From positions 24,039,489-24,103,488 of the forward strand of contig OX344756.2 of the NCBI GenBank assembly GCA_947034885.2: a stretch of DNA of 64,000 nucleotides. Direction: 5' to 3'. Position 1 is the first letter of the stretch, and each line of letters opens with the position of its first letter. Below are positions 18,901 through 63,800 of the stretch, piece by piece. Below the pieces are notes generated by a model. That model was not told the DNA's origin and ran no database searches. It saw only the letters and a program-made list of their open reading frames with translations. The stretch comes from Thuidium tamariscinum (Eukaryota > Streptophyta > Bryopsida > Hypnales > Thuidiaceae). A program made the position numbers and the translations under genes.

Positions 18901-20973
18901 TCCTTCCCAACGTTTGTTCTGCTGCTACTGCCATATTGAGAGTCTCCCCTATGATCAAGAAAAGATAAGGTGCCAGTGGGCAGCCTTGTCGAACACCTTG
19001 ACAAATATTAAACTGATTTGTAGGTTTACCATTGAGTAAGACGGAGGCTGAAGCACCCTGTAGAAGCATCCTCACAAGGTGAGCAAAGGAATCTGGGATT
19101 CCAATTTTTGTCATTGCGTGAAGAAGATAATCCCATGACACCACATCATATGCCTTTGTAAAGTCGAGTTTAAGAAAGATAAGATCTTGCTCAGACTCCA
19201 GGGCCCAATCCACCGTTTCATGTTGTAGTAAAATATTGTTGAGTATATGCCTGCCTGGAAGAAAGGCTGATTGCTCGGGACTAATCACCTCCTTTAATAT
19301 GCTTTGCAATCTAATCTACAAAGCCTTGGCTAAAATTTTATATGAAACATTGAGCAATGTTATAGGCCGCCAGTTGGAAAGATCAGCATGTTCCCCAGCT
19401 TTGAATAAGAGTACGATGGTACCAAAGTTCATACCATTTGGAAGATGCCCGTTGATGATGGCTTGGTGAATCATGGCTGTGAATTCTTCCCCGAGCATAT
19501 CCCAGAAACAGCAGAAAAATTCCATCGTTACTCCATCTGGCCCTGGGCTTCTACCTTTAGACATCTGTAACAGTGCCTGATGTAGTTCTTTGTATGTGAG
19601 AGGGGCCTCTAGCTGTTGAGACATATCTGGTGAAAGTTTGTTGGAGACGGTTTGAAGAATCGAAGCCCGATCTCTCTCTTCTTGCCATGAGGATGGAGGT
19701 TGAGCATATAAATGAGAATAGAAATTGAGGCAAATCTGTTCTAGGTCAGATCGATCATACCTCAGTGAGCCTTGACTGTCCTTTAACGCTGTGATGGATG
19801 CAGCGTTCTGGGGTGCACGAACTGCGTTGAAAAATTCCGCAGATATTCGGTCTCCAAACATTCTCCATTTTACTCGCGATCGTATTTTTTGGCCCTCGAT
19901 TTTCTTTGCCTCCAAGTTTGCAAGCTTCGTTCGAAGGGAATTGACGGTCTCTTGGAGACTAGTACACTGAGGTTGTACTTGCAATTGGCTAGTTTGGTGT
20001 TCCAGCTCCTTGCATAGTGCCGTTTCTTCTTCCTGACAGCGGCGTGCTCACTGGATGCAATAGCCACGATAGAACCTGGTCACCCTTTTCATTTTGGCAA
20101 AGAATGATGTTGATTTTGGAGCTGCAGCCCAGGTTTCACGAATTTGAGCCTCTGCTTCATCGAGGTACAACGACAACATAACCCATCTACTCGGTCGAAC
20201 TGGGTTTCTTCAAACTCAATTATCACAGATATCGGGCAGTGATCCGATCTAGTGTGATCACCCTTAATTTGATACTCTAGTATCTTCCTATGCCCGGGGT
20301 TCGAATCCTGAAAGATGTAGCATCGATCTAAACGAGCCATGATTCTGTCTCCGTTGCCCCGAGCATTGTCCCATGAGAATTGAAGCGAAGGGGATGTTAA
20401 TGGGCCTTCCTCTACCTGAAGTGTATCTTTCAACCCAGTGAAGGTTAAGTGCTCAATTGCTGAAATAGCTTTGCCGCATGCGTTAGATTTGTCCTTTTGG
20501 TACTCTACCATATTGAAATCCCCGAGCATCACCCATCTGCATGATGTAGGTAAATCCCTAGCTAGAGTTTCCCACATGATTCGTCTGGAGTACGAATCAT
20601 GCGGAGCATATAAATTTAAAAAACCTAGATCTCCCCCTGGTATTCGGGACATAATAAACCATTGCGCCCGGCTTCCTAGCAGGGTCCCGGATTGTGTAAT
20701 TAATCTTGCCCATCGTGGTGAGATGAGGGCAGCAACGCCACCTTTCCCTGCGTTCCTCCCATCGATCGTGTACCCAGGTTCAGCTTCAGAAACGAATGTG
20801 GTAGCATGTTTCCAAACTTTGTTACCGAGTTGCAAGGCGCTGGAGCCTCGCAATTTGTGTTCTTGTAAGAATAGCATATCTACGGGGTTGCGTTTTAAAT
20901 AGTGTCGTAAGTTATCGATTGCACTAGGGTCGTTCAGCCCTCTAATATTCTGGGAGAGTAGGCGTAACTTCAT
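15971..20973 (-). pseudogene. LINE ORF2: endonuclease, reverse transcriptase, zf-RVT, interrupted
   Basis: The N-terminal part (20973 to about 20200) is an exonuclease-endonuclease-phosphatase nuclease: SQNIRGL, LQEHK, GDFN and SDHCPI are all present. The reverse transcriptase follows, with GRSPGPDG, DFTKAYD, GVRQGCPLAPYLF and the catalytic YADD at about 18842-18853. A zf-RVT-like Cys/His block (CTCC...HRFFEC) lies near 16430-16490. There is no RNase H domain. Damage: a frameshift near 20200, stops at about 20048-20050, 19316-19318 and 17204-17206, and the foldback insertion at 17361-18096. Without that insertion the frame would continue across its site. The element cannot make a whole ORF2 protein but looks only moderately old. 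Confidence 0.85.
17361..18096. mobile_element. Foldback element inserted in the LINE, TA duplication
   Basis: It starts AGGGTGATTGCAAGAAACAC and ends with the complement GTGTTTCTTGCAATTGCCCT. TA flanks it on both sides (17359-17360 and 18097-18098). At 736 bp it is shorter than the copy at 13131-14220 but shares ends and arm motifs (GGTGTGAC, CCAAAACGTAGAAGTTATGGCC). It has no coding capacity. It is younger than the LINE it interrupts. Confidence 0.85.
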
Positions 20974-23471: not shown

Positions 23472-23755
23472 ACTTAGATCTAATCGGGATTAAGTTGTAG
23501 ATAACACGTATTAGCTCGTCACACTGCTGAGCTTAGGGTTCGAGAGAAGAGTAAAACCGGCTAGCGATCTAGGTCTGAGTGGGTCGATATTAGATCTAAA
23601 CCACCAATCGCACCCCCTGGGCGTACGCAAACCTGTACTGATAGCACCACTCTCACTCGGATTCTCGCAATGTTCTCAACTAGAAGAGAAGATCTGCAAA
23701 ACGGAGACGCTCATGACGCCGCCTGCGATCCGCATCGCGAACCCAACCAATTGAT

Positions 23756-25193: not shown

Positions 25194-26114
25194 TTAACCC
25201 CGAAAAGACCAACAATCATGTGTTTTTTGGCTATATAGAAATTTTAGATAGGTACGTGTGACTAGAGATTTCCATATTTTTGACCCAAATTTTTATAGAA
25301 GGTAGGGGCAAGAAATATCTTTCATATGCACTAGATTTCATGCCATTTGGAAAGACTAGTCAAATGTCATGGCCTTGTATGTTTTGTTTTTTATAAGTAG
25401 GTAGATTAGGTAGATTTGAAAAAATCACTTTTTTCAAAAACATAAATTTGAAATTGATTTTCTAGAGTTATATATGCGTGGAATGCTTTGAATCATTCCA
25501 TTTTGATCAATTAGTCAAAAGTTATGAGGATTTTTTGTTTGCGGGCAATTACTCTGAAATAAACTTTGAAGTCCTTTATCTTGTTTAATTTTCAATATTA
25601 TTTGAAAAATATAAAATCATAGAATGTAGATTGTTTATTACAACATTGCAACCATTGGAATTGACATTTTTCAATTCCATAATTCAATTCTTAACAATTT
25701 AGTATCTCTAATCATTCTCTACTATTGTCTCCTTTTTTTCCCCTATATATTGTACAATTCCAAATGATGTGAAATTTTTCAAACATGTGGCCAACTTGTA
25801 TAGGAAAAAGAATTAAAAGAAGAACTATCCAATTTAGACATTTTTTCATAGAAAAGTGAGCTTGTAAAGTACAAATGCCTTGTTTTTTCAGGGCAAAAAA
25901 ATGATTTCAGTGGATTTGAATGCTTATATTTTTCAATCCACATGGTGGAAATGTCTGAAATTTTTATTTCATATTTTCAAGTCAGCATACTACAAGATCC
26001 TATGGTTACATGTGTCAAAAAAAGTTTTTTTTCAAGAATTTGGTACTTGTTCTAATAATGACAATTTTTGAGTGTTTTCGGTGAAAACATAGTCATGAAA
26101 CTTTTAGGGGTTAA
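25194..26114 (+). mobile_element. TTAA/CCCCTAAAGG TIR element, full length
   Basis: It starts TTAACCCCGAAAAGAC and ends CTTTTAGGGGTTAA, 921 bp in all. Its interior follows 55680-56636: CAAAAGTTATG, CATGTGGAAAATT-like words, and GTGAAAACATAGTCATG close to the right end. A 63-codon frame at 25880-26071 has no transposase-like motif and is not considered coding. Confidence 0.75.
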
Positions 26115-36052: not shown

Positions 36053-36854
36053 TTAATCCTAAAGATTTTTTACTAAGTTTTCACCAGAAACACTCGAAAA
36101 TTGCCATTTTTAATATAAGTATCAAATTTTAAAAAGAAAATATTTTGAAACACATATAACTATAGGGTCTTGTATTACAATGGTTTGAAAAGATGCAGAA
36201 AAAATTTCAAAGATGTCCGTATAGATTGCAAGATATTAGCATTTGAATTAACAAAAATCTTTTTCTTAACCTTGCAAACAAAAAAAGCAGTTGCACTTGA
36301 CAAGGTCACATACTCACATTTGTATTGAAAAATGTTCAAATTGGTGGTTAGTCTTTGGATTTGTTCTTCAACTCAAGTTGGCTATATGCTTCAAAATTTT
36401 CAAATTATTTGGTATTGTATAACACAAAGCAAAAAAAATTAAATTAAAAGAAGTAAAAAATGATTCAAAATACTAAAGTGTTAACAATTTATTTATGGAA
36501 TTGAAAATTGCCAAATGGCGTATTTTGTTAAAATGGTAGTATTCCATTAGTTTGACACTTTTGACAGTTCAGACCTCACGATCTGAAATCTAAAACTGCC
36601 ATAGATTTTTGAAATCTACATGTATTGTAGATCTCTGAAATCTATACATTTCTAAGATGTTTCAAACCATGTGGTCTGAAATCTAAATGTGTCATAGATT
36701 TTGAAAATCTACATGTGTCCTAGATGTTTGAAATCTTTACCATTTCTAGATGTCAGTTTTTGGTTCAGACTGTGCGGTCTGGAAAATGACATAAGGAATA
36801 CTACCATTTTAACAAAATTGGCCATCCAATCCTAATAATTGTAATGTTGTAACT
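36053..36854 (-). mobile_element. TTAA/CCCCTAAAGG TIR element, interrupted and incomplete
   Basis: It starts TTAATCCTAAAG and follows the 59838 copy (TTTTCACCAGAAACACTC, AAGATGCAGAAAAAATTTC, CACTTGACAAGGTCACAT). It is split by a 0.3-kb MITE (36517-36823) and resumes with CCTAATAATTGTAATGTTGT. It then stops where the copia fossil begins. Its other half is not found on the far side, where a different copy in opposite orientation starts. Confidence 0.65.
36517..36823. mobile_element. ~307-bp MITE with 28-bp terminal repeats, inside the TTAA element
   Basis: Left end GGCGTATTTTGTTAAAATGG (36517 on) pairs with the right end up to 36823, and the pairing covers about 28 bp with two mismatches. CCAAAT and CCAAT on the two sides suggest a target duplication. 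The interior holds two direct repeats of roughly 85 bp (about 36588-36675 and 36676-36755), rich in TCTGAAATCTA. Confidence 0.75.
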
Positions 36855-39800
36855 ATTGAGAATAGGAAATGAAACAAAACCAATGCAAGAAGAAAAGTAA
36901 TTCTTAAGAAGGAGGTTTCAAACATATATGGAGAAGAGAAGGAAAGTAGCTTTTTTCCCTCCTATTGGTCTAGAGGATTCTAATCTTATCCCTAGTTGCC
37001 TTCATGACTAAAGTGAACTGCAGATAACTATAGTAGAGAGTGTTTTAATAGAATACTATTCTTAATACTCCTCCTCGCTCAACATAATATTGTTAAAAAT
37101 ATTATAATCTTAAAGGATTTACAATTGTTGCCTTATTAAAACCTTATCCTCGAAAACCTAAGTTAGAATCAAGCACAAAACCAAAGATGAAGGAAAAAAA
37201 GTACAACACCTTCATCACTCCATTCTCATGGTTAAATTCAATGGGAAAAAAAATCCAAAGAAGGAAAAACAAAGGTTTTTACAATAACTATGAAATTTCT
37301 TGCTCCAAAATACTAAGTCATAGCATTCCAATACCTTAGACAAGTCGACAATGAATAATCAATGGAAGAGCCTTGGTGAAGAGATCCACAAGATTATTTG
37401 CTAAAATAATTTTCTTGGTTTCAAGTGCTCTAACTACAACAAGGTATAGGTATTGTTCCCCAATGGTTCCTCCTACTCCTCACAAAGGTAATAAGCTCCT
37501 CACCCAATACCAACTTGTATTCAAGAAATTCAAAAACTTGTCTCTTTTGCAAAGTAGCATACTCCTCCTTGATGGCAGCTTTCCACTTCAACTAATCGGA
37601 GCAACGCATCACTTCACTAATAGTACATTGATCAAGATCATCTTTCTCACAAAAAAGATTTTTTGCAATCATAGAAACAAATGATTCATTCAATTCAATT
37701 GTTGTTCTATCCCAAATATCACATGTATTACAATACATCATAAATAATTATATATTCAATTTGGACTTTTCTTGCTCACAAGCAAGAGTTCCTCTTGTAG
37801 GAATTGCAGTGGTATGGGGCAGAGATCCCGGTAAAGTAGAAGTGGTTGTTGTAGATATATAAGAAATATTATTAGACATTGTCTTGCACTTGCGTGATTG
37901 TTTGTCAGGTCTATGAGTCTATTTGCTCAGTAATTGAAAAACTGGAGCAAAAATAGTTGCTAAAATTTGAACTTAGGTAGGAACATTTTGAGCTTCATAT
38001 AACAGAGTCTTGATAATCCTTGGTGCATTGTTGAAGCCATCAAGTGTCTTTGTCTTCCCTAGTGAATTGTTCTTGAACAACTATTCATCCATTTAAAGAT
38101 GGAAATTTGTCTCCTTCAATTTGACAATTAATAAAATATTAAAATGAGTACAAAGCAACATATCAATGGAAGGATTGATATAACAAAGAATACTTGGAGA
38201 ATCAAACCCAATATAAATGTCTTCTTGTCAATGAGCTACAATTGTATAACATTGAGATTCAAGGATAGGAACCTATATACAACATCCAAATACTCGCAAG
38301 TGAGATACATTTGATACACATCCAAAAAGAAGCTCTTAAGGAGAAACGATATCAACTGATGAAGGACAAAGCCAAATCAAAGTTGTAGCATATGAAACAA
38401 CATGAAACTGAATCCATTCTTTGAAAGATTCTGCCAATCCATTTTGAGCTTGTTCGTATGGAAGAGATATGTTAAGTCAGTCCTTATTGTAGTGCAATAA
38501 TTTTCAAAATCTCTTGATCGGAACTCTTGAGCATTATCCATTCATAAATCTTGATTGGATAATTAAGAAAATGACCCTTGAAACAAATCAACATAGATAA
38601 TAAATTAGAAAAAGCCAAGTTTCTCATTGATAATAACAAGATATGTGATTGTTTGCTTGATAGATGAATTAAAATCATAAAATATTCAAATGGTCCAAAG
38701 ATAGAATTTATGGGACCATAAATATCACCCATATATAGTTTTGAAAACATTGGTGGTAAAAAATTGCAATAAAATAGTTGGGCAATTAATTTACCTTGTA
38801 TGTATATTTGGCATAATGTCATTGAATTAACAATTACTAGTTGTGAATTATATTCAACGACACATAGAAGGAATTTTAATTTATTTTTATGTAAATAAAA
38901 TAAAATAGAGTCTTTGTGGCTATATCTTCCATATCAAAGGAAAATACTATTATAAAATAATATAAAACTGGATAAACCAAGTGGTTAGATTTCAATCTTA
39001 TACAAGTCATTTGCTGCAGCAAAGGCTATTTCCTCAATATTATCGTTTGGTACAAAAACCAAAGCCTCTTGCCTATCTAGAATTTTATATCAAGAGGTGG
39101 AAAAGATTGGTGTATACATTCCAATAGTTGATCAGACTTTGGAAGGCATAGGATGAATACATAGCACCCATGCATGTAACTTTGTTTATCCCATAGGATT
39201 GTGTTTGTAATAACAAAGTCAAGGATTGCACACAAGACTTATGAATAGATTTGTCATCAACAATTCATAGACATCCCACAACATTTTACTTGTAATTATA
39301 AAGTCAAGGAACGCATTACAAGACTTATCAATGAAAATATCATTAATAATTTATGTATATTGTAGGATTGTATTTATAAATATAAAATGAAGCTGTGAAG
39401 GAATGCATCTCACCAATGGACATCTCCAGGTGTGCAACTCCAATAAATCCATGGATGCATCTATGATGTGGGCTTCTCAAGTTTGTAATCAGAGCTTTTC
39501 ATTTTTCTGAAATAACTTTGCAAAATACATTGATGTCTAATAAACATTTGTTAAATGGCCTACTATGCCACATTTGTAGGAAAAATGCATCTTCAATGGA
39601 CGCTTAGTATGGTTGTTAAACAACCTACATCTATTGTAGTCAAGTAGATTTTTTTGTTTTTGACTACTTGTCATTTTCTATATAAAATGAGACCAATTAT
39701 CAAATTGTTTTCACATTTATAGAAGATAATTGGCTAATAGTCATTTTACACACCTTAGATATAGAAAGCTCTATAAAGACTAGATTAGAAAGGTGGCAAA

Positions 39801-41991
39801 TTCTCTTGGAGTCCTTTCAAGGCAAATAGTTATCTTGTTGTATAGATATATAGGTAAGACAAACTGACATTCTCCTAACCCTCTCTCTTGATTTGTTTTT
39901 GGAGCTAAGAAATTGATTGTTGGAGCTTGTAATAAAATTTATTATTCTTGTGGTTGTGTTTGATTTGTGTTTGGTTTCATATTCTTTGACAATTTGTAAT
40001 GGCCAATGTGTCAAATCTAATGATTAGTTTATATTATTTATATTTTTTTCATAATTTTTCCTATTTGATTACAAAATTCCTAGCGAATGAACCTTTGCTA
40101 CTTTATTACAAGAAAAATGGACAATCCTATCTAGTTTGTTATTTTTTGTGGCTTGACATCTATGATGTTAGTAAAAGAACTATTATGCTTCCTTTGTATA
40201 TATTGATTATTACAATATCACAATTATTGATAACAATTAACATTTATAATGTCAATTTGTCTATAATTATCATTAAAAACCTCAACAGTATATGATTAAG
40301 GAAATATAGATCCTATTGTAATTAGACTTTGTTTTGCTTTTCAACAAGGAACATCTCCTCCTCATCTATAGCCTATGACTATACAACCTCAATTATAATA
40401 TAGTGCAATATATTTCACTATTAAAAGAGATGAATGCTAAAAGACAATAGAACAAAATCAATATTCTTAAAAAAAATAGAGGTGAAAGTAGAGATACTTA
40501 CAATAGAAGGATTGTGAAACAAAAATTAAAAAATTGTAATAAAGGCTCCCCAAATAAAACTTGCTCTTGCAATTCTCACCTGTGATAAATAAATATTGCC
40601 ATAAACTTCCTCTAAAGCAATAAGACTAATAGGTTGAAGTCTTCAACCAACAACATAATGCTCCTGCCTTTAGATCTAAACCACCGGAGAGTGATGAAAT
40701 ATTAAAAAAAAAAGTGAAACTAATTAAAGAAGAGCACTAGAGGAGGATGAGCAAAGAAATGTGTACGTTCTAAGCTAGAATTAGAGGAAACTAGACTTTG
40801 GGTAAATGCATGGTTGAGTGGCTCAAATCATGTCACACTTTCAATTTCTACACAAAACTAATTTTCCAATGCCTAGAAGGTATATTGAAAAAATAAAAAA
40901 TAAAAAATAAAATCATTTTTGAGGCTTAAACTTCATTTTTGATACAGCCATGTTGTTGAATAATTTTTAGAGCATTTAATGAAGGTTTAGGAGACTTTTA
41001 AAAATTCATGGGTGTGATGAACTTGCTATCAACAAATTTTTTAAGGACTTTTTAAAGATGATTTTGGTACTTAAAATCATAGAAGAGACTATGATTATAG
41101 TAGCTATTTGAGTAAATTTTAAAGAAATTATAATCTTGTTGTACAGACATGTATTGAATGTTTGCAAAGGACTTTTTAATGACTTTTTAAAGCTTGAATT
41201 TTATGAAGTCTTTTTCTTATAGCTAATTTTTTTTTTCAAAAATTATTTTTTTCAAAGTATAATAATTTTCAAGGTCTAGGGGTGCTCAAAAACCTAGATA
41301 CTTTTAGATTTAAAAAAAAATTGTTTCTTATAGAATAAACTGTCAAACATTTTACTTGCAAAAAAGGACTTTTGGACTTGGACTTTTGCCAAAAATGACT
41401 TACTCAACCATGCATTTTTCCCTTTGTGGAAGTAAATTAGATGAAACTAGACTCTATGGAAGTAAAGTAGGTGAAATTGAAGCTTGTAAGAAAGCATCAT
41501 GAGAAAAGGTAATCAAAAACATTGTGTCTAAACTAAAAGAATCGTTAAAAATAATATTGAATCAAAGCTAATGAGATGTAGATTGGCACTTAGGGCCCAT
41601 AACACTAAAGAGAGAGGTTGTAAATGGAACTCAAAAACAAAATCAAAATTGAAAATTTTGAAACATAAGAAACTGGAAGACAAAAGGTGACCTCCTCTAA
41701 GACAAAGAATAATTGAATGATAATTGTATATATGAAGCTCAAAACAAAGACTATGAAAGAGTGTGCTGATAACGTATTAAGAATAGGAAACAAAACAAAA
41801 CCAAAATATGCAAGAAGAAAAGTAATTCTTAAGAAGGAAGTTTCAAACATATATACGGAGGAGAGAAGAAGAGTAGTTCTTCTCTCCTATTAGTCTAGAG
41901 GATTCTAATCTTATTCCTAGTTGCCTTCATGACTATATTGAATTGTAGATAACTATAGTGGAGAGCGTATTAGTAGAATACTATTCTTAAC
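36855..41991 (-). mobile_element. Fossil Ty1-copia-like LTR retrotransposon, about 5.1 kb
   Basis: Two direct repeats of about 215 bp (about 36855-37066 and 41775-41991) are closely similar, with small differences that suggest moderate age. Beside the right LTR, the - strand reads CGTTATCAGCAC, a primer-binding word common in plant copia elements. Beside the left LTR, a purine-rich GAGCGAGGAGGAG on the - strand fits a polypurine tract. Both set the orientation as - strand. Between them are decayed pol-like remnants on the - strand; no whole gene survives, and there are many breaks. A 0.6-kb MITE is inserted at about 40801-41421. Confidence 0.75.
40801..41421. mobile_element. ~0.6-kb MITE nested in the copia fossil
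   Basis: The left end GGTAAATGCATGGTTGAGT pairs with the right end ACTCAACCATGCATTTTTCC with one or two mismatches. CTTTG flanks both sides (ending at 40800 and starting at about 41422), a likely 5-bp target duplication. The interior has no ORF. The superfamily is not clear from a 5-bp duplication alone. Confidence 0.7.
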
Positions 41992-41996
41992 AATAA

Positions 41997-42955
41997 TAAC
42001 CCCTAAAGCTTTAAATTGCCTTTTTTTGACAACATAGTGATTTTGGGTAGCTCATTACGAATGCAATTTTTTCTTTTTTTTTCTTTGAAATTTTCACAAA
42101 ACATTTTCTCAAGGAGTAGCTTTAAGGCCCAACAATTTTCATAACTTTTGACTACATAATGAAAAAGTTATGGCATAATATGTTGTTTTCTTTACTCGGT
42201 GAATTGGCAAGGAGACAAGGCAGCTAAAAAAAACTTCTTTAAAATGATTCTTTTTAAGAAATAAATTTTGAAATTGGTTTATTAAATTTATATCTATGTG
42301 GAAAGCTTTTGAAGCATTCTATTTTGATGAATGAGTCAAAAGTTATGAGAAGTTTTAGTTTGAAGTAGTTTGCAGGTAATTTTAGAGTGTCTATTCGACA
42401 AAAAACAGTTGGAAATTCTTTATTTTAATTCAATTTTTAATAATTTTGAAAAAAATTAAAACATAGGTGAATATTATTTATTAAAATGTTATAAACATTA
42501 GGATTGGAATTTTTCATTTCTATAAAAAAATTCTTTACAATTTAGTATTTTGAACCATTTTCTACTTCTTTCTACTTACCATTCTTCTCCTATATTTTAT
42601 ACAATTTCGAACGATTTGAAATATTTTGAGCATATAGACAACTTGCATTGAACAATAAATTCAAAGAGTAATCACCATTTTGAACATTTTTTCATACAAA
42701 TGTGACCTTGTGATGTGCATTTACATAGATTTTCATAGGGATAAAAAATCGATTTTTGTCAATTTAAATGTTAGAATCTTGCAATATACACAATGAAAAA
42801 TTTTGAAATTTTTTCCACATGTTTTCAAACCATTTTACTAGAAGAGCCTATGATTACATGTGTCAATATTTTTTTTTTCTAAAACTTTGCATTTGTTTTA
42901 GAAATTGCAATTTTGGAGTGTTTTTAGTAAAAACATAGTCAAAAACCTTGAGAAG
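41997..42955 (+). mobile_element. TTAA/CCCCTAAAGG TIR element, worn ends
   Basis: It starts TAACCCCTAAAG and parallels 55680-56636 throughout (GACAACATAGTGATTTTGGG, GTAGCTTTAAGGCCCAAC, GTGACCTTGTGATGTGCATT). It ends near GTAAAAACATAGTC with a degraded terminus. A 93-codon frame at 42905-43186 crosses the right end and is not supported as a gene. Confidence 0.65.
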
Positions 42956-45900
42956 ATAAACAAGCTAAACCTAAATTTTTTAATCTATTTTTCCAAAATA
43001 TTAAGAATTGAATTAAAGAATGGATTTCAAACCTCTTTGCAAAGTAGAGATTTTGTAACTAATTGCAAACTACCCCACACTAAAACTCTTTGTCACTTTC
43101 ATCTCATCAATCAAAATGGAATGATTGAGAGCTCTTTAAATAGATATAAATTCAAAAAAGATTTGTTTCAAATATTTATTTCTTAAAGAAATAACTTTTG
43201 AAGAAGTTTTTTAAGTTGTTTAGGTCGCTTGCTAAACAAATAAAGCTTAAAGATAGATATGAAATACACAAATCTCAACAATGAGATCATTGAAGTAAGA
43301 GACTATCTAATAACCTTAACCTTTTTTTCTTTTTAAACTGTAAAAATTGACTTTAGGGATGAATACAATAAGTAATTTTTAAGAAGATGCTTTAATTGCT
43401 TGAACAACAAGATTGTCCAAAATATTCATGTAACTAATCCAAATGGAATGAAGCAAAGTTTCCATGTAGATAAGAATATATAATCTATGAAAAACAAATT
43501 CTTGAAGTTCAATATTTTAATTTTTTGTGGAATTTTTCTTTGTCTACAAAATATAATTTGGACTTATTGTACAATATATTTTGTTCAAGGCACAAGTTTA
43601 CATAAAAATTATATTCCAAGAATGCTTATATTTTTTCTACCCATACAAAATGTCTTAAAAGTCATGATGATAAATATTGAGACCATAGAAACATATCTAA
43701 AATCCAATTTGTCTTCAATAGGCAATGGATTTTTAGAGATAAAATACAACTTTTTTGGTATTTTAATTACACTATAAAAATGAAAAGGAACAAGTTTACA
43801 TTCTTGCAATTTTTTTAACTCACTAAATTATTGAGTTATAAGCTTTGTGTATTATAATTCAAATAACTTAATATTTAATAATTTTATGGCTAGTACAAAC
43901 CTAGAGACATTTGTTTCTAAAATTCAATGCAATCAAACACTAATTGTTGATAGTAGACCATGCAAAAGTAATTAAAGAACTTGAAAAAAATTAACAAAAA
44001 ATACAATAAGTATAGAAAAAAAGATATTAACATTACATTAGTTCAATGACTCCCAATGTTTTAGTATACCAACTCTCTGATCAAACGTGCTCATATTTTA
44101 TCCTTTGACATGTTAATCTTTGTTTAGTTTTTGCAAATTTTTCTTATGCCTTAGCTTTAGATGTCAAGGACACTATGTGTCCTATAAAAAGTCAACAAGA
44201 CTTTGTGCATTTTGAAGAACAAATGATTTCTATGTGATTCTTTGTAAACAACTTCATTGACATTGTATTCATGTCATTGAGTTATATTCAAGATGTTTTA
44301 ATTGGTTTTTGATTTTACATGGGTAGTTTATAGAAATATGGTATACTATTAGTGGTAGTGTATTTCAAAATTTTGAGCTTTTCTATCCTAGAAATCCTAG
44401 AAAGGCCCTTCGGATTTCTCTATATGATATATATTTAGCTTTATAACTCTATGATTGTGATATAATATATCAATTGTAATAATACATTGTTATTTATGTA
44501 CTATCATGACCATTAATTTACTTCATACTAAAAAAATATTTAGTCAATGTTTTTCTAATAATACCATTGTGTTCATAATATACAATGTGCCGAAAAGTAG
44601 AAATCACTTCCTAGCTACATTAGTTCCCTCCCCTCTTTTCAAAAAATCACAAGCCATTGATTTTTCTTTAAAAAAAATGATATCCCTTCCTATATGCCAT
44701 TGATTTTCAAAAAATTAAAGGCCAATGATCTTGGTGAAACTTAATTTGAGCCATCTAAATACAAAATCAAAATATGATATTGAATACAAATATAGACACA
44801 AATACTTGATACAATATGAATACAATTTACAGATATGGAGTGGATGTAGATAGTATATATAGGATATGGATATAGATATATACACATATCTTAGTATATG
44901 GATATGGATATACCATTCTCACTATCCCATATTAATTGTACAGAACCCCACCTTCTCAAAATTATAAGAAGGGGTGGGGAGTACATAAAAATCAAAATTA
45001 ATAAAATTCTGATATTTAAATTTAAGTATTTAAATTAGCAAAGGGAAGGGGGATTGGAAATAATTTAAATTTAAGTTCTAAAATTTTTTAGCACTTTGTG
45101 ATAGTTTGTCATAATGTGCTCAAAAGAAGAAGTTATTGCCTACCTAGTTACTACTATACAACCATAAAAGGCTTTCTAACCCTATTAGAATTAAAAATTG
45201 GTTCTGACATTCAAAACAATTTTTTTGTTTTTAAGCAAAACAATCAAAATGAAACTTGTGCAATTTCTAATCCACTTAGAAATTTTGGAAAATCCATTAA
45301 AAACAAGTAGTTTAGTGAAGTTTGTAGTTGAAGATTTATAACCAATTTTCTAAATATAGAATAATACAAAAATTCTTTATTCCACAATGTTCTACACTAT
45401 AATGTACTTTTATTTTGAAGGTTTTAGATTTTTTTGAACATAATTTGTATTTGTATAAATTTGATTCATTTAAAAAAATCATGGTAACTTGAAATCATCA
45501 CAAATAAATTTAGTAATTTTATGACAAATAATGGACAATTGATTTCATCACTAAAAAGGTAAGACCAAAGAATTTTACTCCAAAATAGAGAAGAAATAGA
45601 GGATACATAGGAACTTTCAGTCCATCCCTTACTAGCTTTCTTTTTTGCATTTCTTATGAAGTACCTAAGTGGTGATGTTAACATTGTAGTAGTGCTTCAA
45701 ATTCAGCATTGATCTAGACATTTGATAGAATATATCACATATTTATATTTCTAATTCCATCCTCAATTTGGCAATTTCATCTAATATTGAATTTTTTAGG
45801 CCATTTTCTACCCTTTCAATATTAATTGTGCTCCAAGAGCATTGTGCAAGGCCCATTACTTTAGTGCAAATGGCTACTAAATTGCCAATAGTAAAAATGT

Positions 45901-46762: not shown

Positions 46763-46991
46763 TTAACCCCTTAATGATAAGCTAGTGGCTGTGGAATTGA
46801 GGAATTTTGACACCGTGGGAATCATTGGTTCAAAAAAATCTAAAAATACTCGTTGGAGGTCAAAGCACTATAGAAGATCTTCCTTTTCCACCCCTAATTC
46901 TGAGGATGAATGATTGCAATTTTGTCCTACATAAGAAGATTCTCTTGTATTCATCAACTAAAAATTCGCTTCAACATTGTTTAAGGGTTAA
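46763..46991. repeat. Short element with TTAACCCCTTAA / TTTAAGGGTTAA ends
   Basis: The ends resemble those of the 0.9-kb TTAA family, but the interior does not. About 46850-46940 is instead similar to 56640-56730 (AGAAGATCT, then GATGAATGATTGCA / GATGAATAGTTGCA, TTTTGTCCTACA), which lies next to the right end of another TTAA element. It may be an internal-deletion relative or flank captured between two ends. Confidence 0.4.
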
Positions 46992-47399
46992 GTCATAGTA
47001 TAGCAATACATGCATTGAAGAACAACAAACTCATCCCTAACCAATGTACGAGGAGATCCGGTTGCTAATAGAAAATCATCCAAATGAAATCCTTGAATTA
47101 TCGATTTAATTCTTGCATTTTAGGTCATATAACCGAATGAAAAATTAGGAGTATAGGAAATGAATTGTTTAGGAAAGTGAGATGATGGATTTTCATGCGT
47201 CCATCATTTAGTAGAAGCAGATTTCAACTGCCCTATAAATGCACCTACCGGTTCTTAGTTGGAGAACCCTAGGATATATTCAACTTAAACTTTAAGAGAA
47301 ATAAATGTCCATCAATAGTGTATTGTAGAATGAACATGAAGGAGAAGACAAGCTCTTTATACAAGTGGGTGGTAGGAGGTAAAACAATCCATGTGGGAT
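46992..47399 (-). other. Decayed coding-like block, origin unknown
   Basis: Composition is less extreme, and the - strand gives protein-like stretches, but no intact frame remains. It may be a fossil element or pseudogene; I cannot name it. Confidence 0.25.
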
Positions 47400-47880
47400 A
47401 TGTAAAGTAGTATTAGGAGAAGCTCAATCACTCATAGTGAAGTAAAAAGCAGGAATTGTGTTCAAAGTAAAATTTCAGACCTCATTTTAACATAGTAGAA
47501 TGATTTTTTTTAAACTTTGAACTAAAAAATGTTGTTGAATTATGCTACATTTTAACTCCAAAAATCCGTTTGAGGTTTTGAGACTTCAACTAAAAGTTAT
47601 GGACAAAAATCAGAATGTGTCTTTGAAAATGTCAAAAAAAATGTCCCTTCAAACTCCTCTCTGAAAATTGCCCATAACTTTTAGGAGGAGTCTCAAATTT
47701 TCATATAAATTTTTGGAAATAAAACTTAGCTTGATTCATCAATTTTTTTTAGTTCAAAGTTTTTTGAAAAATATATTCTACTATATTAAAATGAGGTCTA
47801 AAATTCTACTTTTAGCACAATTCCTATGTTTTTGACAATGAGCGGTCAATCTCTCATCTTTAAATTGTCCATATCTTCTA
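47400..47880. mobile_element. Foldback element with long imperfect arms
   Basis: AGGAATTGTG (about 47453) pairs with CACAATTCCT (about 47817), and CAGACCTCATTTTAA with its complement TTAAAATGAGGTCTA. Pairing goes on inward (ACTTTGAACTAAAAAAT with TTTTTTAGTTCAAAGT) and in the centre (GAGACTTCAACTAAAAGTTATGG with CCATAACTTTTAGGAGGAGTCTC). One arm also occurs at 26130-26300. The outer borders are approximate. Confidence 0.6.
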
Positions 47881-49319
47881 AAGATTCATGACAAACAATG
47901 AGAATTGTTTTAAAAAGTCTTCTTTACTATTGTTTTCAATGAAGTAACTCCTTCAAATTTCCATCAAAAAATCTCTTAATAGTAGAAGGTTAAATGGTAG
48001 ATTTATCTTTAGCTTAATGGATTGTAATTAAATTTCTTAGAATTTATAATGGATCATAATTTCATTTATTTGCAGATTTGGCTATGTGGTCCTAGAATTA
48101 GCCAAAAAAATTCAGCCCTTTTTCTCAACAAATTTATTCTAAATTGACCATCCAAGTATGGTAATGTATAAAAAATTGCCTTGAACTTAGTAATTAAATT
48201 GTAGATTGTATTCTAATTATATATTTTGTATTCCGAAATCTTTTGGAAACTAAAAGAAAATGACCGGAATGCTAAGAAGAAACAAGGCTTTTTACCAAAT
48301 TAAATGACTACGCTTAGGCAACATCCGAATGACAATGGTGAACTACCAAATGACATATCAAAAGAACGGCAAAAAATTGAGTCATCGTGTAAATTCCCCC
48401 ATTCATTGCCCCTAACTGCCCAAGGCACCAAAATCTGGTGCTTGCAAAACTTTCAAGTTAAATAGAACCTAACCAAGTTTCTATTTTTAATAGTTTGTAT
48501 TTTTGAAAAGTTCTTCTAGAAGTCTAGTTTTAGTGTCAAAAATCCGATTTGGAAAATGAATGATAGTGATTTTTCTATACAAGATTTTGTGCAAGGGTAC
48601 CCATTGCAATCTTGACTTCCCGTAGTGTTGAGAGTTCTTAGAAATGAGCCTCAAATACACTAGATCTTGGATCAAAAAGCACATTCAAAATTCATTTAAA
48701 AAAATTACCGAGTAGTTTTTAAAAAGCCATAAATTGATTGGGGTTATACATGTTGGATTTTTTGGTCACTATTGTTTTAGATTTCACTTGTGAAAAGAGG
48801 ATTGAAAGTTTTTTAAAGTTTTAACACCCTCAAGGTCAAACATTATAATCTTTCACTCCTTAAGTGATATTATTGTGTTTTCTTTTCCCATGAGATCTCT
48901 AACTTGTCTAGTTTAAATGTATATGGTTATAATTCAAAAAAAATTGATATAACTTATCAAAATGTTGGTATTTTGTTCAACTTAGATCAAATTCCAAGAA
49001 ACTCAAAACAAGCCTTGGGCATTTAGGGGTTAAATCTATGCATAATGTCTAGTTTAGGTGCTATCATTTAGACATTCAAAATCCATATGCAAAGTATGAT
49101 TTTTTAGCATAGTTTGGAAATGTTGCTGCTATTATTATTTTACATTATTTAAAGGGTGGTGGCAACACTAAGATTTTGGAAACTTCTTTCCTAACCTAAA
49201 TATCCAAACAAATAAAACCTTATTTAGTTTATAATCAAATTTGCATAGGAATGACATGGTCACTTCATGCATTGTTAACACTAGTATTTGAAGGAGAAAT
49301 TCATACAATGAGCTTTAAA
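47881..49319. other. AT-rich DNA with one orphan TTAA-family end
   Basis: GCATTTAGGGGTTAA at 49019-49033 resembles a right end of the TTAA element family, but no matching left end was found. There is no gene. Confidence 0.4.
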
Positions 49320-54039: not shown

Positions 54040-55507
54040 CAATCCAGTCCACCAACGGTGACAAATCGCCGGAAGAAGGCGTCTGAAAACGGATCCCGGC
54101 AGCCCAGCGGCGGGGCTTGCAACTGCAGGCAATCGCAGATCTGAGCGACTCACGCAAGACTGCGAGGCCCCGCCCGTGGACCGAACAGAAGGGAAGCGCA
54201 GATGAGCGGAACTCTTGCGGCTGGATCTGGGATCTGCGAAGAGGAGAGGAAGCGAGCGAGGCCTTAGTTACTCGGAGACCACGCGACCGACTCTTTCATC
54301 ATTCCCGCACCCCGCCCTAACTTCCCTCTGTCCCATCAATGTGGTCGGGTATCCGTCACGGTTATCAATAATTCGTCGGGTGCCGCGAATAATTCCAGGC
54401 TAGATCCAGCTCACGGGTCTCAACCGCGTATGGGAATCAGTGCACAGGTCAACTTGGCCTTCTCCGCTCAGGAGAGAATAAACACCCACCATTTTGTGCA
54501 ATGATTGGGGTATGCAAAGGTAGAGGGACCCATTCCCGACCAGGGACCCATACCCAACATGGAGAGGCTGGAACATATTTTCAACAGAAACTTGGAATGC
54601 ATTTTTTCCTCCATTTCAAGCCTGGGTCCAATAAGATCATGACTCATGTCCCAAATTAGTGACAATGAAAGTAAGAAGTAGTGAGCTCGCGGGAAAGTAC
54701 TTAGTTTATGACTGGAATTGGAAGATTTTAAACATCAGCTACTACTAGTATCATATAACTTTTTGGCTTCCAAAAACCATCGTAATGTCAATTTTGAGAA
54801 TAAAATTTCTGAAAAATGTATGATCTCTATATATCCTATCTTACTACTTGGCAAAAATTTCACTTGCTTTGTACTACTTACAATCTGCTTAAAAATCACT
54901 TAAGTGATTGACTATGGGTACTTCTACCTTATATATGGTAAGTGTCAGCAATCTCAGAACGGATTCAAGGTTTTTAGCCAAATGTTCATTTTTTAAAGAT
55001 TATATTTGAATTTACACTTAGGACATGAAAAAATTAAGTAGAAACCAAGCAAAATTTAGCTAGTTTTGGGATCTCGCTAAGCATAGGTCTTAGGAATGAC
55101 TTTGGTAGACTTGAAAAGCAAGAAGAATAACATTCATTAGAAAAAGCTGAGCCATTGTAATTTGATGCCGTTTTGACATTATAGACCATTTACGTTTCAT
55201 TTTTTCAATCACTTTGATACTGGATTGGCACAGAAGGTGGCACGAAATTATCTTTATAGCATTCCAATGGACAATAGTATCATGTCATGCAGTTCATGAT
55301 GGGCTAAGCAAACTTGAACAAGAAGAAAAATCAATGAAGCATTTGTTGGGAATGGTTCAACTATCTAATACCTTAGTAATCATCGAACGACAGACTAGTA
55401 ACTATGGAAATCATCTATTTTGATACATTGGTATAAGAAAAATTCAAAAGCACCTATTAGAAGTTAAAGTATTGTACAAAGAATAGGAATATCAAGGGGT
55501 TTGAAAA
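54040..55507. other. Methyltransferase leader/promoter, then AT-rich DNA
   Basis: 54040 to about 54450 is GC-rich and is the likely leader and promoter. Open frames on the + strand here are antisense to the gene and unsupported. From about 54670 on nothing is recognised. Confidence 0.45.
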
Positions 55508-55672
55508 ATTAAAGGGACTTTTCATAAAAAAAAACTATAGGTGTTTGAAGTATGATTTACAAACCTCAAACACTTCAATAACTATTGATGTACAACAAAT
55601 TGATGTACAACTATTGAGTAGATACTTATATAATGTGAGATGTGGATTAATTAGTGTAGGTCCCTTTAAAAA
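55508..55672 (+). repeat. ~165-bp MITE, copy 2 (undisturbed)
   Basis: It begins TTAAAGGGACTTTTC and ends GGTCCCTTTAA, so the terminal repeat is about 10 bp. AAAAAT occurs on both outer sides. Inside it reads AAACACTTCAATAACTATTG at about 55567-55586, the empty version of the site where another copy was hit by a TTAA element. Confidence 0.65.
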
Positions 55673-55679
55673 TACCTAT

Positions 55680-56636
55680 TTAACCCCTAAAGGAACAAAC
55701 TACATTTTTCGGCAACATCGCAATTTTGGGTAGCTCACTACAAATGGAGTTTATATTTATTTTTCTTTGAAATTTTCACACAACGTGTATCCAAGGAGTA
55801 GCTTTAAGGTTCAACAATTTTCATATCTTTTGAATACATGGTTCAAAAGTTATGGCATGATATTGCACTTTCTTTACTCGACAGGCAATCCAGGCAAGAA
55901 AAAAAACTTCTTTAAAAATGATGTTTTTAAGATCTTTTTTCTTGTAATTGGTTCATTAGATTTTTATCAAAGTGGAAAGCTTTGAATATTTTCATTTCAA
56001 TCAATGAGTCAAAAGTTACAAGGAGTTTTAGTTTAGAGTAGCTTGTGGCTAGTTATAGAATCTCCACATTATAAAAAAAAAGTTTGAAATCCATTGTTTA
56101 ATGCAATTTTTAATATTTTTGGAAAAAATCAAATGAGTAGGCATGGAAATTTTATTACAACACTTTAACCATTGGGATTGACATTTTTCAATTCCATAAA
56201 TTAATTGTTTATAATTTTGTATTTTAGTTCATTTTCTACTTCTTTCTACTCACTATTTTTTTCCTATATGTTGTACAAATTGGAATGATTTGAAATTTTT
56301 TGAGCACATAGACAACTTGCCTTTAAGGATGAATTCAAAGAGTTGCAACTAATTTGAACTTTTTTTCTTACAAATGTGACCTTCTGAAGTGAAGCTGCCC
56401 AAAATTTTGTAGTGGTAAAAAAAGGCTTTTTGTAGCTTCAAACACTAAAATCTTGCAATCTACATGGTGGAAAATTTTGAAATTTTTTCCTCATCCTTCA
56501 AGGAATCTTACTATAAGATCTAGTAATTTATATGTGTCAAAAAATAAATTTTTTCTCAAGTTTTGGTACATGTATTAGAAATGGCAGTTTTGAAGTGGTT
56601 TTAGTGAAAACATAGTCATTGTCCTTTAGGGGTTAA
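55680..56636 (+). mobile_element. TTAA/CCCCTAAAGG TIR element, best-preserved copy
   Basis: It starts TTAACCCCTAAAGGAAC and ends GTCCTTTAGGGGTTAA. It is 957 bp long, with TTAA at both extremes. Shared interior words with the other copies include GGGTAGCTCACTACAAATGG, CAAGGAGTAGCTTTAAGG and GTGAAAACATAGTCAT. No transposase-like ORF is present, so it is non-autonomous. Confidence 0.8.
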
Positions 56637-57691
56637 TATAGAAGATCTACTCTTTCTATTCCTAATTTCAAAGATGAATAGTTGCACTTTTGTCCTACAC
56701 AAGAAAATTCCTTGTCATTCATAACACACCAAATGTCTACCTTGATGTTTATGGATTAACTCCTCAAGGGCCAAGGGGACATAATGTGTCTTCTTCAAAT
56801 TTTCAATGGCAAGTCTTCAATAGGGTGAAACACATCTCAATATTTTGTAAACTAGGATCTTGTAGAGTAACAAGTTTACATATTTGTTGCATTGTGTGAT
56901 TTTTAAAATTTGAATATAAAAAGTATTTAAAATCTTTTATATATATAATGTTTTTTCAATGAAAGGAGTAGTAGAGATGGAAAAATATTTTCTTTGATAT
57001 TTTTGGCCTTTATAGTTTATTCTTTATAAACAAAGAAGATTTGAAGAATTCTTTTTCAAATTTTTATTTTTAACAACTTTCAAAATAAAGGTTCAATTTA
57101 GTGTGATTAAGAATACAAAATAATTAGAATAATTTCCAATTTTTTTGAAGAAGTTCCAAAAAATATTGTTGTTATTAAATTAAAAAAATTTATACATATC
57201 TAATTTTTTTAATTTTAGGATTTAACTTTGTCAATTTTGGCTTCCTAATCATTTTGTTTGAAAATGTATGCATATTTGAGGGATATTTGAATTTTTGAAT
57301 TTTAAAATAAGAAATACGACATTAGCCTTAGATTCTAAGACAACTTTTTTTTGGGGGGGTGATAAAAAAAGTATTATTCATCTTATTATAAAGCTTTTTC
57401 AGCAAAATTTGCGTTTTTTGCCTATAAAGTTGATCATCCATAATTGTTATAATTTAAAAATCCGAAGGTCAAAATTTTCTACAAATAATTTCATGTATTT
57501 TGTACAAAATAGTCTTCACTTTTATACAATTGAAATTATAAATTTCAAGCACATCTATGTGCAAAAAATATCAATGTAGCACAATTCATTAAAAAAACTT
57601 CATTGGGCCTTGAAGGGTTAATCCTTCATTAGCAAAGGGAACCAAAAGTGTCTTTACATAGTCTTGGAATCTAATTCAAAGTGCAGTTCTA
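56637..57691. other. AT-rich DNA with a short block shared with 46.85 kb
   Basis: 56640-56730 resembles 46850-46940. GGGCCTTGAAGGGTTAA at about 57605-57621 looks like an orphan TTAA-family end. A 69-codon frame at 56690-56899 is not supported as a gene. Confidence 0.4.
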
Positions 57692-59640: not shown

Positions 59641-59764
59641 TCATAAGCCATTGAGCCAAGGCTAAAGGTGCCTCACTAGGACAAGATATCTTGGTTAGAA
59701 ACAAGACTTGACATTATCTAAAGTGATAGGTTGAATTATTTAAATTCTACACTAAAGAAGTGTA

Positions 59765-60828
59765 TTAAAAGGATCCATACTAATTAATTGACATTTTTCA
59801 TTAGAAAATATCTACTTTTGTGGTACATCAATAGTTATTAACCCCTAAAGGTTCAAAGACTGTCTTCACCAAAAACACACCAAAACTGCCATGTCTACTT
59901 CAAGCACCAAATTTTAAAAAAACAACATGTTTAGACACATGTAACCATAGGATCTTATAGTACACTTGTGTGAAAAGATGTGGGAAAAATTTCAGAATTT
60001 TCCACCATATAGATTGCAAGATATTAGCATTTGAATTGACAAAAACCCTTTTTTTGTCCCTGCAAAAAAGCGGGCAGCTACACTTCACAAGGTCACATTT
60101 CTATGAAAAAATGTCCAAAATGGTATTGCTTCTTTGGACTCATTCTTCACGGCAACTTGGCTATATGCTCAAAAAATTTCGCATCATTTGGAATTGTACA
60201 ACATATAGGAAAAAATTAATGAGTAGAAAGAAGTAGAGAGTGATTCAAAATACTAAATTGTTAAATTTTTATTTATAGAATAAAAAAATGTCAATCCCAA
60301 TGGATGTAATGTTGTGATAAACAATCAACATCCAAAATTTTAATTTTTTTTCAAAAATATTTAAAATTGAGGAAAATAAAGACTTTCAAGGTTTATTTTA
60401 GAGTAGAGAATCCATATCCGCCCGCAAACTAAATTTCTTTATAACTTTCATCTCATAAATCAAAATGGAGTGATTCAAATCTTTTTGCATATATGTACAT
60501 CTAGAAAATCAATTTCAAATTTCAAATTTTGAAAAAAAAGTTTTTATAAGAAATTTTTGGGCTGCCCACTAACCAATGAAAACATATCATGCAATAACTT
60601 TTTGACCATGTAGTCAAAAGTTATGAAAATTGTCAAGACTTAAAGCTACTCCTTGGGCACATGTTGTGTGAAAAATTCAATGAAAAAAAACACTCCATTT
60701 GTAGTGAGCTGCCTAAAATCACCATGTTGCCAAAAAATGCAGTTTGGTCCTTTAATTTAGGGGTTAAAGTTTCTAGAAGCTAAACATCATATTTTAAACA
60801 TTTTCGTACTCCATAACAAGTCCCTTTC
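59765..60828 (-). repeat. ~165-bp MITE, copy 3, split by a TTAA element
   Basis: Read on the - strand, AAAGGGACTTGTTATGGAG (from about 60828) leads to GAAAC at the right border of the TTAA element. TAACTATTGATGTAC then resumes past its left border and continues to GGATCCTTTTAA (about 59765). Together the two pieces match 55508-55672 in order. Confidence 0.65.
59838..60767 (-). mobile_element. TTAA/CCCCTAAAGG TIR element, full length, nested
   Basis: It starts TTAACCCCTAAAGG and ends TTTAGGGGTTAA, 930 bp, in reverse orientation to 55680-56636, which it matches along its length. A small internal duplication near the right end (CCTTTAATTTAGGGG) slightly alters that terminus. It is inserted in the short MITE described above. 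An 88-codon frame inside has no recognisable motif. Confidence 0.8.
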
Positions 60829-63800
60829 ATTTCTTGGTCCTCTTAAAATTCCTACTCATTGTAGTTAGTTACTAAAGTAGGTTTTGGATGATTGTATATA
60901 TGGAGGATATACAAGTGCACTTGTAGTTAATACTAATAGTAACTGACTATATATACTATAATAAAATATAAATTATTTCTATTGAATCTTATTAACAAAT
61001 TAAAGAGAATTTCAATGCACTTTAATACACTTTGTTTGGTCACTTTATAAAAAAGGTTATTAAATTTTAAAGTATCATTTGTTAGTGTGTGTACCAAAAT
61101 TTAATACTAGACTCTCCTAGGTTGTCATAATTTGCTTGTGTACATCTTATATCATTGAATTTAGGTTTAAGTGTCATTTTTAGTCCAAATATGGTGTCTC
61201 ATTTTGAATGCACATGATTATAGTGCATGTACTTTGTTTGTATTCACTATGGCCCTTCTTTCAATTATGTCCATTGTCTATGTTTGTCCAAAATTTGTAG
61301 CTTGAAATTTTGAACAAATGTAGACAAAAGATGCAATTGATAAGGGACTTGGGTATAAGAGACTAATAATTATGTGTTTATTAGTTTGGGTTTGATTCCC
61401 ATAGACTTGCTTTTTATTACTTAAGTTGTAGGTGCTTTCTTGATATTTAGCTAGGGTTGTAGTTTCTTCACTTTCTTGCTACTTCATCACACATTTATTA
61501 AAGTTTTGAATTTATAGTTTTTATTATTATTATTATTTTGTATGTTTTTGTTTTTTTAGACTTCAAACCTTACATCATGTTTTTTGCAAAGAAAAGATCA
61601 CAAGAAAGAATAAATTCATCTTTAGTAAGTCTTTGGGGGATGTGATTTAAAATGGATAACAAATACTAAAAAGCTAAATAGTAAAAATGTGACCTTATGA
61701 CTTATTTCTATAACACATTTTGACTCCAATGTCTCAAAAAGATATTACTAAAGGATCTTTTTAATTTTTTTAAATACCCCTAAAGTTCTTTGACTATGCT
61801 ATTCTAAAAAATAACATTCAAAATGGGTTGTTTTGATGGCAAAGGCCCCCCCCCAAATGAAAACTGAAATCTTATTACATTTGACCATAAGATCTAATAG
61901 TAGAATACTTTATTTTATTGTAGTAAGAAAATGGAAGGTTTTGATTGCACAAATTAGGAGATAATAGCATTTGAAGTTGAAAAATATGTTTTGGGGGAAC
62001 ATTCAAATTTCAGGTGGTTTCAATTTAGAGAGGCTTTTGTACAAGTTAATTTGCTTGAAATTTTTTTCTTTCTTTTGTGGAAAAGTTGATGAGATGTCCA
62101 AAAAAATTCATAACATTTCAAATTGGGGAACATGTACCAAAAAATTCCTATAGGACACTAGCTTTAAGAAATATCTTGTACAAAGCTCTTTTTTCAACAA
62201 TTTATAGCTTGCACATATAGTAATTTTTTCAAAATGTAAAATATAGGGTTCTAGATTTTAGCTAGACCTAGAAGAATAAAAAATAAAAATAAAAGTTGCC
62301 TATAATATCAAATTTTGGCAAGCTTGATCATTCCTTGTCCAAGTTGAAAGAAAGGGAAATTCAACATATTGGGCCTAACACGAGAAGAGGCTTAGTGAGG
62401 GTTATTGAAGCCTAGCTCATCTTCAGTCTCTGACATTGTTCCCAATGACTAATACACATTCCCCTCAATTTACAATTTGTTCCCCTATTCCATGGAATAT
62501 AGTAGAAAAATCTTTATATTATTCAATGCAATTAAACACAAAACTTCATAAAGCACTTTACATTCTAGTTGAATGTTCTATATTTGTATAGTACCACCAA
62601 GAGTACCACATTGGAATTGATACTATAAACCCTATAAATATTGAAAACATAAATGAATAAATCATTGAGGTTTACATATGAAGTACATTTCAATAATCAC
62701 ATTCAAAAGGATTTGAAGGTCAAATATATTTCATACATAGCACCAATGTTTTAAAGTATGTCATGCAAGATTTAAAAGTAGTTTTAATTTAGTATTTTTA
62801 AATTCTAGGATTTAGGATATAGGGTTTAGGATTAATGGATAAAATTTGTGGAGGAAAAAATAGAATTACCCTTTCCTCCACACATTTCATCTAGTCATAT
62901 TAAACTTGAGGATCTTGCACACTTGATGTAGACTAGGATAAAAATGCGTACATTGAAATTAAAAATTTCTACTAACCTTGTAGAAATTTCTCTTTATATT
63001 CAGAATGTATTCAGTTTTTGTAACCAACTAAATTTCTCTTTGTATTTTTTAGTTTATAAAAGAACTTGAATATGATTTTGAAGGGATGAGTTAGAGAGAC
63101 AAAGATGTGCAAACCATCCAAAATTTAATTTATATTACGATTAGATTTTTATGTTGGTCCATGATTTTTGAATTATCAAAAGTATTACACATAGTGCACT
63201 TGGGACACAAAATGTATGTCATCCTACTATGCATTCATCCTACAATGAAAGTAATTGTATGAAAAGGAATTATACTTGGCTTAGAGCGATTACAAATTTT
63301 TTTTTAAATAGTTGCAAATGTGTCAAAAGAAAATAGTTGCAAATCTTTTCCTTGATTTTTGATTATTTTTTATAATATTATTATATACAAAATATATTAT
63401 TGATGTCATTGTCATCAAATTAGTTATAAAGAATTTTATTTTTAAGATTCAAGATTTTCTTTGGATAAAGAATTCAAACTTGTTTGGAATTTGGATACAA
63501 CATTGCTTTGAAGCTTTTATACAATACAATTGAGTTATTCGTAAAGTACTCTAAACCCAGGCTTAAATCCATGAGTTTTGTGAAAAATTCGGTTGAGTTA
63601 AAAAAGTCAAAATAAAAGTGGATATAAAACTTATTTTTCTAGCAAAATGGTGCGTAAAAAATTTTGGTCCTCACTTTTGAAGTTGTGTGACATAAGTATC
63701 TTGCAAAAAAATTTGACGCTTCAACTATAGTTGCCTTCTCAACTTCAAAAAAAGTCATGCCCAAAGTAGGGGGACTTTACAAATAACTCAAATACCCAAC

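Follow-up and report, generated by a model that had tools for sequence, protein, structure and literature searches.

Old, non-coding TTAA-bounded elements, probably of piggyBac type, in a genomic window of the plant Thuidium tamariscinum

PiggyBac elements are DNA transposons whose autonomous members encode a DDD transposase (Pfam PF13843, DDE_Tnp_1_7), and a survey of them was reportedly made by Bouallegue et al. 2017. Their mechanism is described as a 4-base staggered hairpin cleavage at TTAA that is followed by seamless repair (PMC7351741). The terminal inverted repeats (TIRs) are given as 12–19 bp long and carrying the motif CC[C/T]T in one account (PMC2872659) and as 4–24 bp, in a large share of cases with CCC as the first bases, in a survey of animals that also records rare elements with duplications such as TCAA, CTAA and ATTA (PMC10813416). 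The piggyBac families characterised in the literature used here are animal ones, to judge from the passages drawn upon. Among the closest described systems are the coral CMITE families, which are non-coding, duplicate TTAA and have a short TIR that begins with CCC; their family III starts with CCCCTCAG, that is, with CCCCT (PMC2872659). In plants, the comparable small non-coding elements with TIRs are the Stowaway (Tc1/mariner) and Tourist (PIF/Harbinger) MITEs, for which the targets TA and TWA are given (PMC12595863), as against TTAA in the elements described below.

The elements lie in a window of 64,000 nucleotides of Thuidium tamariscinum contig OX344756.2 (33.4% GC); the term window refers to this whole stretch. 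They are about 0.93 kb long and have ends of the form TTAA-CCCCTAAAGG...CCTTTAGGGG-TTAA. A family profile was built from six copies (A, C, D, E, F and G), and at a cut-off of E 1e-3 it gave nine matches in the window: the six input copies, element B (E 1.6e-46) and two partial matches on the reverse strand at 42955-43246 and 61776-62149. Full-length copies, measured with both TTAA included, are F (55680-56636, forward strand, 957 bp; profile match 55681-56636), at the edge of copy Q2 of a dispersed repeat Q, G (59838-60767, reverse strand, 930 bp; profile match 59838-60766), inside repeat copy Q3, and C (25194-26114, forward strand, 921 bp; profile match 25195-26114), which is flanked on its right by a copy of the foldback repeat T. 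Element B (6486-7419, forward strand, 934 bp; profile match 6487-7419) lies inside repeat copy Q1. Copy A (1226-2099, reverse strand, also the span of its profile match) is short of some 60 positions of the model at the far end, keeps a TTAA end at 1226 and is 88% identical to G. Copy E (41996-42959, forward strand; profile match 41997-42958) is near full-length and has a decayed right terminus, and D (36053-36852, reverse strand; profile match 36056-36555) is partial, with TTAA kept and the C-run shortened. The match at 61776-62149 is a weak partial copy, K (E 8.7e-11), whose CCCCTAAAGT terminus is preceded by AATA and not by TTAA; the match at 42955-43246 is a partial inverted internal copy that adjoins E, and a further partial copy, which matches B, is located at 43338-43713 on the reverse strand.

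Pairwise identity among A and C–G is 68–88%, and B, itself of full length, is 53–56% identical to them; on these values the copies are taken to be old. The first-pass annotation had listed near full-length copies at 6486, 25194, 55680 and 59838 and had counted 41997 among the pieces. The family is real, and the last three of those copies stand as near full-length; the copy at 41997 is itself near full-length, and the one at 6486 has the full length and the same ends but is a distant relative. Other repeats have inserted in or lie beside two of the copies. D is interrupted by another inverted-repeat element at about 36528-36817 with ends of about GTATTTTGTTAAAATGGTAGTATTCC (judged by eye), and it is cut by a copy of an LTR-like repeat that starts at about 36848-36850. 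The two copies of this repeat (41766-41992 and about 36848-37066) are some 88% identical over 218 aligned bases, and the one at 41766-41992, by eye a probable solo LTR, abuts E.

The C-rich terminus is what sets these elements apart from the background of the window. With up to three mismatches, TTAACCCCTAAAGG matches 21 times in the window; the same count in 100 shuffles was 6.67 +/- 2.66, with a largest value of 17, and 21 or more was reached in 0 of 100. TTAA stands directly 5' of CCCCTAAAGG in all six exact occurrences of this 10-mer in the window, and directly before its variants in three of six cases with one mismatch, five of 32 with two and three of 231 with three. For the model-matching copies 13 ends were tallied, and TTAA lies directly outside 10 of them (one end each of A and D, and the two ends of each of B, C, F and G). 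The claim that the family is always bounded by TTAA therefore holds for these ten ends and for every exact CCCCTAAAGG, and fails for the other three, which are both ends of E, with ATAA on the forward strand, and the end at 61777, where AATA precedes CCCC. This tally leaves aside the internal partial match, which has no ends, as well as the isolated ends at 12456, 46763 and 49033 and the pair of ends of an element J, which belong to other or unassigned sequences and are discussed further on. All nine ends that have both TTAA and an intact C-run start with CCCC. Inward of TTAA, the inverted repeat is perfect over 13 bases in B and 11 in F; in G it is perfect over 8 bases and is then broken by a small insertion, and in C over 4, with 9 of the first 10 bases matching. 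A blind scan for bounded inverted repeats over all 256 tetramers returned 18 pairs for TTAA, 29 for AATT, 9 for TATA and 44 for the top tetramer, TTTT; since TTAA is not at the top, the scan by itself lends no support, and the signal lies in the specific C-rich terminus.

The same termini bear on Kolobok-type elements, the other superfamily considered here that duplicates TTAA. A 4-base TTAA duplication would suit Kolobok as well, and such elements are recorded from chlorophytes and rhodophytes (PMC9587614), but Kolobok termini are described there as 5'-RR...YY-3', whereas the elements of this window have CC...GG and start with CCCC at all nine intact ends. An assignment to Kolobok is accordingly improbable.

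Whether TTAA is a duplicated target or a part of the element was addressed with empty sites, for which uninterrupted paralogous repeats inside the window served; B, C, F and G had two paralogs each. A comparison of flanks places B and G in separate copies of repeat Q and F at the edge of Q. Three copies of Q were found with a profile; each contains or adjoins a TTAA element, and the three sites differ. The part of Q1 to the right of B (7420-7627, forward strand; profile match from 7413) provides an empty site for F and G, Q2 to the left of F (55457-55679, forward strand) one for B and G, and Q3 (reverse strand) one for B in its part to the right of G (60768-60876) and one for F in its part to the left of G (59719-59837). 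For C, the two arms of foldback repeat T (47453-47826, boundaries by eye) are weaker empty sites. When B is removed and one TTAA is kept, the joined sequence reads ...GGGATT TTAA GGGGACT..., and its counterparts are ...GGAATA TCAA GGGGTTT... in Q2 and ...GGAATT TTAA GAGGACC... in Q3. Removal of G likewise leaves ...AATAGTTA TTAA AGT..., for which the counterpart in Q2 is ...AATAGTTA TTGA AGT....

Two joining tests were applied to the resulting eight element–paralog comparisons, and because the paralog windows were picked from earlier matches, both address the number of bases and not homology. In the gapped test, which compared five types of join (zero, one or two tetramer units and two odd-length controls), the single-unit join scored best in 8/8. 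In the ungapped test, in which 0–12 duplicated bases were allowed, four bases were uniquely best in five of the eight (B twice, G twice and F against Q3), tied with 12 for the first arm of C, and were not best for the second arm of C (0 and 2) and for F against Q1 (7); the sum over all eight peaked at four bases with 222 matches, the next value being 197. For B and G, which have homology on both sides of the insertion, all four comparisons fit exactly one 4-base unit (TTAA, TCAA or TTGA) in both tests. C has only about 13 bases of support on its left, and F is a weak case since on its right side the match to Q extends only about 6 bases beyond TTAA and then gives way to another repeat (46869-46994). 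That most of the unoccupied counterparts of B and G carry TCAA or TTGA fits an enzyme that requires TTAA and that hit the copy bearing it, and the intact TTAA found in Q3 at the position of B would also fit a site that was never occupied.

A single 4-base unit at the empty sites means that TTAA is the duplicated target and not a part of the inverted repeat. The alternative raised in the first-pass annotation, that TTAA is the outer portion of the inverted repeat of a hAT, Mutator or PIF/Harbinger element with a different target duplication or none, draws on the presence of TTAA at most ends (10 of 13), as would be expected of a TIR. It fares badly in the joining test, where the join with zero TTAA scored below that with one in all eight comparisons. 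Nor did any of B, C, F, G and J show a direct repeat beyond TTAA that exceeds three bases when lengths of 1–12 bases were tried; among the four family copies that keep both ends, B and C have none, G has a single base and F has TAT. The direct repeats that flank hAT and Mutator elements outside the TIR are 8 bp and 9–11 bp long, respectively, and both superfamilies were rejected on that count. The 3-bp TWA duplication of PIF/Harbinger was rejected as well, since a left TTA or TAA would face its complement on the right, so that no direct 3-base repeat is possible. TTAA is thus more than the outermost stretch of a TIR whose element has some other target, and a placement in any of these three superfamilies is extremely improbable. 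The empty-site check that had been proposed earlier, with zero or two TTAA or a longer repeat as the contrary outcomes, has in this way come out in favour of one unit on the paralogs of the window, in four of four comparisons for B and G.

The joining tests do not separate four duplicated bases from two, since the empty sites would look identical if TA were duplicated within a strictly required TTAA. This is the ground for a Tc1/mariner reading, in which Stowaway-like elements with a strong preference for T-TA-A would duplicate TA inside TTAA and yield the same joined sequence, the inner A/T belonging to the TIR (ACCCCTAAAGG); Tc1/mariner MITEs are, moreover, among the five superfamilies that plant papers list in the parts drawn on here. 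The reading would, however, need a T before and an A after the TA at 10 of 13 ends. It would also need an extra change at copy E, which has ATAA on both sides on the forward strand and CTTC instead of CCCC at its right terminus. The Stowaway TIR is CTCCCTCC, and none that starts with ACCCC is known for these elements; the termini of Stowaway and Tourist both differ from the CCCC ends. E is the sole pointer between the two lengths, and a hint at most: its flanks would suit a duplication of four bases, from one variant target, better than one of TA, and two separate changes are possible at E given that its right terminus has decayed. Taken together, these points make a Tc1/mariner origin hardly probable. 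Sola elements make 4-base duplications as well.

The coding capacity of the elements was examined in twelve intervals, which comprised the copies, J, the interval 46763-49033 and the stretch to the left of 12456. These hold 52 stop-free stretches of at least 45 aa, the longest of 99 aa. No transposase was matched in Pfam among the 20 of the 52 that were queried, which include all 17 of at least 64 aa, and the earlier statement that no copy encodes a transposase agrees with this result. Weak matches to MutH (E 0.01), SNAD3 (E 0.2) and DUF6814 (E 0.0041) fell below the curated cut-offs and were taken as chance. As no transposase-like frame is found in them, the copies are considered non-autonomous. 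Wider searches gave no match to Rfam at the gathering threshold in the window, none to plasmids by distant blastn with F as the only query, and none of the terminal pattern in viral contigs. An internal 19-base pattern matched once in genome contigs, in a Thiodiazotropha MAG, with about two matches expected by chance on our estimate.

On this evidence, the copies are probably old cut-and-paste DNA transposons of piggyBac type, non-autonomous and without coding capacity; their membership is argued from their ends and their target. The C-rich terminus and the piggyBac-like TTAA duplication noted in the first-pass annotation find support at the level of sequence, in ends of the form CC...GG and in the B and G comparisons (four of four, with C and F weaker, and with a TA-only duplication giving the same sites). 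The start of the short TIR, CCCC at nine ends, corresponds to the published CCC or CC[C/T]T start. With T. ni piggyBac and its autonomous relatives, the elements share, as far as these are described, the TTAA target, its duplication and a short C-rich TIR; they differ from autonomous piggyBac in having no transposase gene. Relative to the coral CMITEs, compared like the other animal families by their description, they are longer, at about 0.93 kb versus about 0.1 kb, and their host is a plant.

In the proposed mechanism, a transposase supplied in trans would bind the short C-rich inverted ends and make a 4-base staggered cut at the TTAA at each end of the element. Joining of the element into a new TTAA would then leave TTAA duplicated on both sides, and excision would restore a single TTAA. 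An enzyme of the piggyBac superfamily, hairpin chemistry and seamless excision are proposed by analogy with the known piggyBac mechanism. An alternative is a plant-specific, so far undescribed cut-and-paste superfamily that duplicates TTAA, has C-rich ends and is unrelated to piggyBac. The host is a plant, some standard lists of superfamilies omit piggyBac in the portions available, the copies contain no transposase, and ends alone cannot prove homology; yet a new superfamily is not needed, since the target and terminal features that were tested match the piggyBac signature as published in the passages drawn upon. We consider this alternative unlikely and retain the piggyBac-type assignment as the probable one.

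Further TTAA-bounded stretches are present in the window. Element J (56756-57621, 866 bp, strand not assigned) has the ends TTAACTCCTCAAGG ... CCTTGAAGGGTTAA, with 3 mismatches in the 14 bases next to TTAA, and its interior has no match to the family model; J is possibly a further TTAA-bounded family. It starts at the same TTAA at which a repeat at 56637-56759 stops. This repeat has another copy at 46763-46991, and in both places its right end falls on TTAA or no more than three bases from it; the copy at 46763-46991 is possibly a small TTAA element of 229 bp with the ends TTAACCCCTTAATG and TTAACCCTTAAACA. The blind scan pairs position 46763 (TTAACCCCTTAATG) with an end TTAACCCCTAAATG at 49020-49033 on the reverse strand with 1 mismatch, over an interval of 2271 bp (46763-49033) that holds no open reading frame of at least 110 aa. 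For an isolated end TTAACCCCTTAAGG at 12443-12456 on the reverse strand, no partner was found in the window.

Several features of the window lie outside these families. Its Pfam matches are Methyltransf_29, zf-RVT and RVT_1, with DUF4283 and the At5g58720 UBA-like domain below the curated cut-offs; families of this kind point to a land plant. A LINE occupies 15971-23489 on the reverse strand, where fragments of a reverse transcriptase, of zf-RVT and of a DUF4283-like domain are spread across several long open frames. An open frame of 642 aa at 2803-4731, in which Asn, Ser and Gln look abundant by eye, contains a 204-base tandem duplication (3699-4106, 81%) and has no Pfam match. At 13156-14187 there is a very large foldback with nested inverted arms (13156-13304/14039-14187, 13292-13376/13970-14054, 13372-13543/13804-13975 and 13539-13661/13687-13809) of 89–93% complementarity around a 25-base gap, possibly a foldback transposon or a locus that gives rise to hairpin RNA; the stretch 17926-18066 matches one of its arms at 74%.

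The kind of element described here is already known, and for its plant host there is precedent on paper, although it is under-documented. The first-pass annotation had held that piggyBac elements are not normally reported from plants. Two plant papers do list five other superfamilies without piggyBac in the text available, and that of PMC12595863 mentions neither piggyBac nor TTAA. Other papers state the opposite: PiggyBac is listed among angiosperm MITE superfamilies in a 2023 review (PMC10004981), is named among plant class II superfamilies in another (PMC10794571) and is said in passing to occur in plants in three papers, including PMC10813416, and 1230 copies labelled PiggyBac are tabulated for the Ceratopteris draft genome (PMC6890710). 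The passages drawn on also include ones from PMC8086355, PMC2528002, PMC12550479 and PMC10140906. Among the matches listed from open-licence titles and beginnings of abstracts, none characterised a plant piggyBac family with its transposase; among the matches listed from titles and beginnings of abstracts, none resolved a plant TTAA case by empty sites.

Elements that are specific for TTAA and end in CCC are the hallmark of piggyBac, which underlies widely used tools for seamless gene transfer (PMC7351741). Because some plant surveys, in the parts drawn on, use the five other superfamilies, families that duplicate TTAA can go unseen in them. The window is also an example of how a target duplication can be resolved within a single stretch of DNA when repeats serve as empty sites. 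As a tentative and somewhat doubtful possibility, the land plants of this lineage may carry, or may have carried, a long-lived TTAA-specific transposase of their own, either of piggyBac type or independent, that amplified several non-autonomous families (that of F and G, that of B as its distant relative and perhaps also J, which is unrelated), which schemes of five superfamilies would have missed or misnamed. If its transposase were found, such a native plant TTAA system would provide a test of descent versus horizontal transfer of piggyBac into plants.
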